Shown: one piece after another, positions 4,361-5,701 of the stretch
Numbering within the stretch: the stretch's first letter is position 1
Layout: each line of letters starts with the position of its first letter
NCBI GenBank assembly: GCA_017860615.1
Contig: JAGDMU010000005.1
Span: 248,001 to 312,000, forward strand
DNA length: 64,000 nucleotides
Reading direction: 5' to 3'
Source of the DNA: Pseudomonadota bacterium
GTDB lineage: Bacteria; Campylobacterota; Campylobacteria; Campylobacterales; Sulfurospirillaceae
Notes under the pieces: generated by a model
The model's input: the letters and a program-made list of their open reading frames with translations, nothing else
Database searches by the model: none
Told to the model about the DNA's origin: nothing
Program-made: the position numbers and the translations under genes

Positions 4361-5428
4361 ATGAGTTCACTTAATATTAAAGCATTATTAAAAAATGTAG
4401 TCGCCTATAAAGCGTCTGATCTGCACTTAGTAGGTCGCAGTGAACCTCAAATCAGAATTGATGGCAAATTGGTTCCACTTGACATGGAACAGCTTAGTGG
4501 CACGGTTATTGAAGAGCTCTGTTACACCCTCATTACCGATAAACAAAAAAAGAAACTTGAAGAAGATAAAGAGCTCGATTTTGCGATTATGTTTCCCGAT
4601 ATTGGTCGTTTTCGTGCCAATTACTATTATACGATTAATGGTGAATTAGCGGCTGCTTTTAGAATTATTCCTATTGAAATTCCATCCTTAGATGATCTGA
4701 ATGCCCCAATCGTCTTCAAAGAGTTAATTAAACGCGAAAAAGGGCTTATTTTAGTAACGGGTCCAACAGGAAGTGGTAAGTCAACCACCTTGGCTGCTCT
4801 TTTAAATGAAATTAATCTCTTTGAACATCGTCATATTATTACCATAGAAGATCCTGTAGAATTTATCCATAGCAATAAAAAATGTCTCTTTTCACACCGA
4901 AATGTAGGAGATGATACCAAAAGCTTTGCCAGAGCACTCAAATTTTCACTGAGACAAGATCCCGATATTATCCTAGTAGGTGAGATGAGGGATCAAGAGA
5001 CTATTAGTACGGCTATTACAGCAGCAGAAACGGGACACTTAGTTTTGGGCACGCTCCACACCAACTCTGCTGTACAAACGATTAACAGAATTGTTGATAG
5101 TTTTGAAGGCGCCGAGCAGGTTCAAGTACGCAATATGCTAGCAACGTCACTTCATGCAGTTATTTCTCAAAGCTTACTTCCACGAGTAGGAGGAGGAAGG
5201 GTTGCTATTCATGAAATTATGATTAATAATGCAGCAATTGCAAACCTTATTCGCGAAAACAAGATTCACCAAATCTACTCTCAGATGCAACTCAACCAAC
5301 AAAAAACAGGTATGGTCACACAAACCCAAGCTATGATGAAACATCTCAAAGCGAATCTTATTAGCAAAGAAGATGCTATCCGCTACTCTACCCAACCTCA
5401 AGAACTCCTCAATAATATGGGAATTTAA
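4361..5428 (+). CDS. pilT: PilT-family twitching ATPase
   Basis: A hexameric secretion-type ATPase of the kind that powers type IV pilus retraction. The 355 residues show an N-terminal PAS-like region (ASDLHLVGRSEPQIRIDGKL), Walker A GPTGSGKST (about residue 130), an Asp box (IITIEDPVEFIH), Walker B-region RQDPDIILVGEMRD and the His box AAETGHLVLGTLHTNSA. The C-terminal helix carries a normal PilT tail. AAGGAAAAAG precedes the ATG. No other pilus gene is in the window. The stop codon lies directly against the MITE-like element. Confidence 0.93.
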   Translation: MSSLNIKALLKNVVAYKASDLHLVGRSEPQIRIDGKLVPLDMEQLSGTVIEELCYTLITDKQKKKLEEDKELDFAIMFPDIGRFRANYYYTINGELAAAFRIIPIEIPSLDDLNAPIVFKELIKREKGLILVTGPTGSGKSTTLAALLNEINLFEHRHIITIEDPVEFIHSNKKCLFSHRNVGDDTKSFARALKFSLRQDPDIILVGEMRDQETISTAITAAETGHLVLGTLHTNSAVQTINRIVDSFEGAEQVQVRNMLATSLHAVISQSLLPRVGGGRVAIHEIMINNAAIANLIRENKIHQIYSQMQLNQQKTGMVTQTQAMMKHLKANLISKEDAIRYSTQPQELLNNMGI

Positions 5429-5701
5429 TAACTGACCTTATATACTCTTTGCAACTTTGCACAAAATAAAAAGGTATTAGATGCTAGGCAGATTTTTGAG
5501 TCATAGCTAAAGCTATGGCGATGAAATCTAACGACGCAGATGATGCCTTTTTATTTTGCCCCTATGGGGTGAGCTTTACTCAACACATAAGCGTCGTTAA
5601 AATGACTTCGATTTGGCTTTAGCCAAACCTTTGTCACTTCGCCTAGCTTCTGCATTGATTAAAGCTCATGCAAAATTGTAAAGAGTATATAAGGTCAGTT
5701 A
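5429..5701. mobile_element. MITE-like inverted-repeat element with TA flanks
   Basis: This fills most of the 5429-5784 gap between pilT and the next gene. Its ends are 33-bp inverted repeats (5429-5461 and 5669-5701) matching at 31 of 33 positions, beginning TAACTGACC. Read as ACTGACC...GGTCAGT, the element is flanked by TA on both sides, the target duplication of IS630/mariner-type elements. The inside is tiled by further inverted repeats: 5462-5477 with 5543-5558, CCCC-TAT-GGGG at 5559-5569, and 5571-5583 with 5656-5668. Smaller palindromes sit in each lateral loop (CATAGCTAAAGCTATG at 5502-5517; TTTGGCTTTAGCCAAA at 5612-5627). No open reading frame of useful length is present, so it would be non-autonomous. 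Confidence 0.7.

Follow-up and report, generated by a model that had tools for sequence, protein, structure and literature searches.

Some bacterial MITEs, with Correia/NEMIS, RUP and ERIC among the kinds named, are processed as RNA (PMC2229807, PMC10969869), and REPs are often found in pairs of opposite orientation (PMC3733652). The published target duplications of ISAba11 are ATTTA and TATAG (PMC7885321). The interior of bacterial MITEs is usually regarded as decayed filler; in the element described here, which follows pilT in the window (the whole stretch of 64,000 nucleotides that was analysed), the interior is the conserved part. No description of this element was found in the literature searched on these organisms, on the end sequence and on MITEs, and the words IS701 and Campylobacter are absent from a 2024 review of prokaryotic MITEs.

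The features of the element are listed in Table 1. Its layout agrees with the original prediction, which had been made from the sequence letters: the pilT stop codon (TAA) occupies positions 5426-5428 and the element starts at the next nucleotide, the 33-bp terminal inverted repeats are complementary at 31 of 33 positions (94%), and the space between them is filled without gaps by a left stem (5462-5477 with 5543-5558), the central hairpin and a right stem (5570/71-5583 with 5656-5668). The inverted kinship proposed for the two halves is visible in the inverted pairs TAACGACGCAGATG/CATAAGCGTCGTTA, AGATGCTAGGC/GCCTAGCTTCT and GCTAAAGC/GCTTTAGC. The TA flanks are present at both ends as stated, but they are not the target duplication, whose unit is 5 bp (see below). 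The predicted fold is a gap-free four-helix junction with an RNA minimum free energy of -125.5 kcal/mol, compared to -58.05 +/- 4.64 kcal/mol in 200 shuffled sequences (z -14.5; 0/200 as low). The right arm is also matched on the - strand by a covariance model of the arm (253585-253651 of contig C21).

Table 1. Coordinates of the element found after pilT (positions in the window) and of the host copies of a second MITE family.
Feature	Position	Strand	Remarks
Whole non-autonomous element, 273 bp	5429..5701	.	four-helix-junction fold; alignment A1
Left copy of 5-bp target duplication, TAATA	5426..5430	.	overlaps pilT stop codon; from sequence, target duplication statistics and empty sites
Left terminal inverted repeat, 5' side of outer stem	5429..5461	+	IS701/ISAba11-type end ACTGACCTTA... 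from 5431; same end on autonomous IS in L322
Left arm hairpin	5462..5558	+	sense on + strand; + strand -43.7 vs - strand -26.2 kcal/mol
AGGC, 5' half of left arm internal loop	5486..5489	+	near-invariant; 94-100% conserved in 54 non-redundant arms
Apical hairpin GTCATAGC-TAAA-GCTATGGC	5500..5519	+	common to second MITE family with IS5-type ends
AACG, 3' half of left arm internal loop	5530..5533	+	near-invariant loop
Central mini-hairpin CCCC-TAT-GGGG	5559..5569	+	CCC-NNN-GGG in other members
Right arm hairpin, inverted relative of left arm	5570..5668	-	sense on - strand; - strand -45.6 vs + strand -30.4 kcal/mol
AACG of right arm (CGTT on +)	5595..5598	-	internal loop
AGGC of right arm (GCCT on +)	5641..5644	-	internal loop
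Right terminal inverted repeat, 3' side of outer stem	5669..5701	-	end sequence stops at 5699
Right copy of 5-bp target duplication, TAAAA	5700..5704	.	4/5 bases identical to left copy
Second MITE family, host copies (L007-L011, L015)	G000:C16:19186, C28:8275, C21:90785, C15:20084, C4:15467, C7:59212		

Covariation across copies, proposed as a check in the original prediction, is seen. In the alignment of 31 elements with a length of 264-275 bp (A1), 67 of the 93 consensus pairs display double compensatory changes, 95.8% of the cells pair (78.3% when shuffled), and the 487 cells with a double change compare to 141 in shuffled and at most 112 in slid versions of the alignment. The stems vary, whereas conservation of the AGGC/AACG internal loop amounts to 94-100% across 54 non-redundant arms. 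An A.C mismatch, another non-Watson-Crick feature, is conserved in the apical stem of 20 of the 46 non-redundant arms scored (columns 26/50 of the arm alignment A3).

The lateral hairpin of the window element is also found inside elements with quite different ends. These follow one plan throughout, in which an outer stem encloses a left arm, a CCC-NNN-GGG hairpin and a right arm within 266-275 bp and AGGC is positioned ~55-58 nt from both ends. The plan occurs under at least 10 different end sequences, only two of which could be assigned to a transposase family; L073 departs from the plan, having one arm within 162 bp. The arm covariance model detects the arm in 66 of 397 Campylobacterota genomes, distributed over 23 of 68 genera; several complete genomes carry at least 13 copies, 13 being the cap applied in scoring. 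The core between the ends is best described, as far as comparison of the sequences allows, as a conserved structured module and not as a decayed transposon.

Other small elements share either the arm or the ends. Ends of the type TAGACTTCTTNCATAACC are those of a 0.9-kb IS5-type element (HTH_Tnp_4/DDE_Tnp_4), and a second MITE family of the host (~166 bp; Table 1) carries these IS5-type ends TAGACTTCTTNCATAACC around a single arm with a GTCATAGC-YRAA-GCTATGGC hairpin; the autonomous IS of this family was located in G020 (L130). Elements with the same ends as the window element include L240, L142, L243 and others, which are near-perfect palindromes of 45-60 bp (e.g., TAACTGACCTTACGCACTATAAGCACACC-TAGGTGTGCTTATAGTGCGTAAGGTCAGTTA) apparently derived by collapse from the structured element, and also L182, L212 and L245, found in contigs labelled Bacteroidia, whose unrelated interiors are very stable (to -190 kcal/mol).

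The two arms differ in the strand on which they fold best. Among the 31 elements, whose orientation was set by global alignment to the window element independently of folding, the left arm read on the + strand has 78 G.T versus 15 A.C cells while the right arm has 6 G.T versus 30 A.C, i.e., its wobble pairs lie on the - strand. Folded in isolation, 30/31 left arms are more stable as the + strand and 31/31 right arms as the - strand, with a mean strand difference above 10 kcal/mol. The same preference is found in 32 elements with identities below 80% and with many end types (left arm + in 32/32, right arm - in 29/32), although orientation was assigned there by the arm model and is less independent. 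In the non-redundant arms G.T outnumbers A.C by 70 to 30, and 20 of these 30 A.C cells come from one conserved mismatch. Given their opposite strand preferences, the two arms behave like a single sense hairpin that is present once on each strand.

Palindromes are known to be corrected at the DNA level. An ordinary MITE with a functionless interior could owe its pairing to such correction (template switching or gene conversion between arms) and its family likeness to common descent. The copies are indeed non-coding and the outer stems have no strand preference comparable to that of the arms (G.T:A.C 13:26), as this explanation would have it. Correction alone is nevertheless expected to have removed the internal loop, yet AGGC/AACG was kept; it would treat both strands alike, yet the arms prefer opposite ones; and the length remains constant at 266-275 bp across different ends. 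We therefore consider the explanation unlikely. Selection on the structure of a single strand, to which compensatory change, loop and strand preference point, is in our judgement distinctly probable. G.T wobbles and a sense preference are equally expected for single-stranded DNA hairpins, and our leaning towards RNA as the selected strand is correspondingly more modest.

If the selected strand were DNA, the inverted arms might be a REP/BIME-like substrate, namely single-stranded DNA hairpins of which one strand is recognised by a tyrosine (Y1/RAYT) transposase or by another hairpin-binding enzyme. The arrangement of strand-specific hairpins as inverted pairs recalls BIMEs, and Y1_Tnp genes are present in 13 of the 16 genomes tested; yet when 20 Y1_Tnp loci were scanned by motif none had a complete arm next to the gene, the arm model matched near only 2 of 26 such loci and at none of those of the host, and the outer ends are of the IS701 and IS5 types. 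A REP/RAYT origin of the arms is unsupported by these scans, and such a substrate appears rather improbable. A separate repeat, TTGCGAGG...CGAAGCAATC, is carried by some of the elements that share the ends of the window element (L275, L278, L191). Its foot (GCGAGG/ACGAAGC) resembles the arm loop, and three copies of TTGCGAGG surround a Y1_Tnp gene in G029 (L347); the repeat may be a REP of the encoded transposase.

The position directly behind pilT had led to the suggestion of an RNA-level or terminator function. A bidirectional terminator or a 3'-UTR stabiliser serving pilT and similar upstream genes would account for the stable fold and for insertion right behind a stop codon. The neighbouring gene pairs of 55 insertions are co-directional in 27 cases, divergent in 21 and convergent in 7; the elements adjoin gene starts (69, called mechanically) more often than gene ends (41) and their orientation is random (14 versus 13). 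The elements often directly adjoin a stop codon (median 1 bp), as explained by the TANTA-like target, and the element is missing from the pilT site in 22 relatives. All this makes a role as terminator or stabiliser very improbable. The RNA-level part of the suggestion was strengthened by covariation and strand asymmetry, whereas the terminator part is unsupported by the excess of starts and the random orientation. For several genes a Shine-Dalgarno-like sequence and the start codon lie 14-30 bp outside the element, a spacing that implies read-through transcription or a promoter in the element end. The context fits a putative orientation-independent RNA role and not that of a pilT terminator.

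The mobility of the element was assessed from its flanks. The 5 bases on either side of ACTGACC...GGTCAGT agree exactly in 29 of 107 elements, compared to 2.06 in shuffles (maximum 7), while 2-bp agreement (55) does not exceed that of shuffles (62); TA is thus a target preference and not a duplication. The insertion site is T|TANTA|A-like. An autonomous relative (L322, positions 1359-2466; ~1.1 kb), traced via a shared protein C-terminus that runs into three ends (L196/L211/L215), has TAACTGACCTTACGCAC-type ends and codes for a 350-aa transposase matching the IS701 family model NF049921 (ISAba11 group; E 1.9e-98). The ORFs adjoining other unpaired inverted repeat ends, among which an autonomous copy was also sought, are ordinary genes. 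In plasmid IS relatives the ends are of the ACTGATGTTACGCA or ACTGACCTTACGCA type and the inverted repeats are the same; exact 5-bp duplications (ATTTA, TCATA, TACTA, TATTT) flank 4 of the 8 copies inspected, the other 4 being without a clear one.

The element is very probably a MITE mobilised in trans by an IS701-type transposase, as judged from its ends and flanks. The IS630/mariner origin with TA duplication originally put forward is replaced by these 5-bp duplications and the IS701-type autonomous relative: a Tc1-mariner-like MITE would explain the TA found at both outer ends of most copies, but with the 2-bp agreement at shuffle level, an IS701-family transposase in the autonomous element and, in 12 host genomes, no intact IS630 DDE_3 gene (PF13358) but a single fragment that lacks these ends, it is hardly credible. 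An IS5-type (DDE_Tnp_4) origin of the ends was also rejected, the IS5-type elements bearing the TAGACTTCTTNCATAACC ends of the second family. ACTGACC-type ends are borne in Campylobacterota by small elements of ~45-410 bp with several unrelated interiors; one or a few copies also lie on contigs labelled Bacteroidia, Anaerolineae, Armatimonadetes and Polaromonas, where errors in the binning of metagenome-assembled genomes are possible. A search for phage or plasmid carriage of the element gave no match. The host genome has no match to the 34-residue C-terminus of the IS701-type transposase, and the host copy may thus be stranded.

The host carries a second full copy (G000:C14:37179-37451; 89% identity) and a third, degenerate one whose central part is deleted, and four further copies were found in the relatives G013 and G007. 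A query joining the two flanks of the pilT insertion matched on both sides in 22 congeneric genomes that lack the element at this junction; 21 of them align straight across it and G010 aligns as two adjacent pieces ~85 bp apart. The closest empty site (G009) reads GGGGATATAAAAAGAAG, which has the same length as the GGGAATTTAAAAAGAAG predicted for a 5-bp duplication and is identical to it at 15 of 17 positions. These copies and empty sites, together with target duplications and terminal repeats that are retained in copies elsewhere, bear out the original view of a non-autonomous, highly structured mobile repeat and show that the element has moved in the past. Exact 5-bp duplications are rarer in structured elements (5/32; 0.96 in shuffles, p 0.0005) than in shorter elements with the same ends (22/65), which implies that many structured copies are old or arrived differently. 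That most duplications have diverged while pairing is intact also speaks for purifying selection, unless some copies came without a 5-bp duplication.

Taken together, the explanation that we favour overall, with somewhat more confidence than doubt, is a trans-mobilised IS701-type MITE whose conserved core would act at the RNA or single-strand DNA level irrespective of orientation. An IS701-family (ISAba11-group) transposase would recognise the element ends in trans and insert the element with a 5-bp duplication into sites of the type described above. The core, composed of two inverted copies of one strand-specific hairpin and the CCC-NNN-GGG hairpin, with the outer stem closing the four-helix junction, is inferred to act once transcription from an adjacent gene or promoter has copied it into RNA. 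A transcript arriving from either side would then meet a correctly folded sense arm first, and the presence of one sense arm per strand would make function independent of the orientation of insertion. The folded RNA could make the insertion tolerable to the host, for example by offering a defined processing or protein-binding site, a role that would keep the core under selection while transposon ends are exchanged; we propose this tolerance only tentatively.

The element might also be seen as one instance of a phylum-wide selfish or regulatory module, a ~270-nt four-helix junction with two loop-bearing hairpins on opposite strands that is selected as a single strand and moves between unrelated pairs of ends with its geometry kept, a generalisation to which we would give not quite even weight. 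If it is correct, what persists is the RNA-like core, to which exchangeable transposon ends are attached. In many Campylobacterota genera (23 with the arm) geometry, loop and choice of strand are maintained while the ends change. A core that is an RNA working in either orientation would offer a testable explanation of why non-autonomous elements do little enough harm to reach many copies. It would also be a new family of structured nucleic acids, absent from Rfam, in Campylobacterota, where to our knowledge structured RNAs are less charted.

The Rfam 15 covariance models gave nothing credible on the element in the window and 17 related loci. In L074 (1550-1684) HPnc0260 (RF02194) scores 63.4 bits over an element end plus the tRNA next to it, a match that is probably artefactual and caused by the tRNA portion. 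With the IS701 family (ISAba11 group; NF049921) the window element shares the ACTGACC/ACTGATG and TTACGCA ends, the 5-bp duplication and the ~1.1-kb autonomous relative L322, but it is 273 bp long, lacks a transposase and has an interior unrelated to the IS. On these sequence grounds the mobile part is a new member of the IS701-type MITEs and the core an apparently undescribed strand-specific conserved structure. Bacterial MITEs such as Correia/NEMIS, RUP and ERIC (PMC2229807, PMC10969869) are likewise small, bounded by terminal inverted repeats, non-coding, intergenic and stably folded as transcripts. Most of them form one long stem, whereas the window element branches at a junction that bears two inverted strand-specific arms, an architecture conserved under many end types and in many genera. 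Caulobacter CIR repeats (PMC2229807) also have an RNA fold with two arms; these are joined by a linker, while in the window element the outer stem that closes the fold and the hairpin at its centre complete a four-helix junction. REP/BIME elements (PMC3733652) share with it the inverted hairpin pairs, the intergenic location and the high copy number. The GTAG or CGTC tag described for REPs (PMC3733652) is absent from the arm foot in the consensus of 32 arms and, as sequence and tag both differ, identity of the arms with CGTC-REPs was rejected; moreover the arms measure ~97 nt instead of 20-40 nt and lie inside transposon terminal inverted repeats. REP/BIME and the Caulobacter CIR repeats are the systems nearest in spirit to the window element, from which they differ in tag, size and enclosure.
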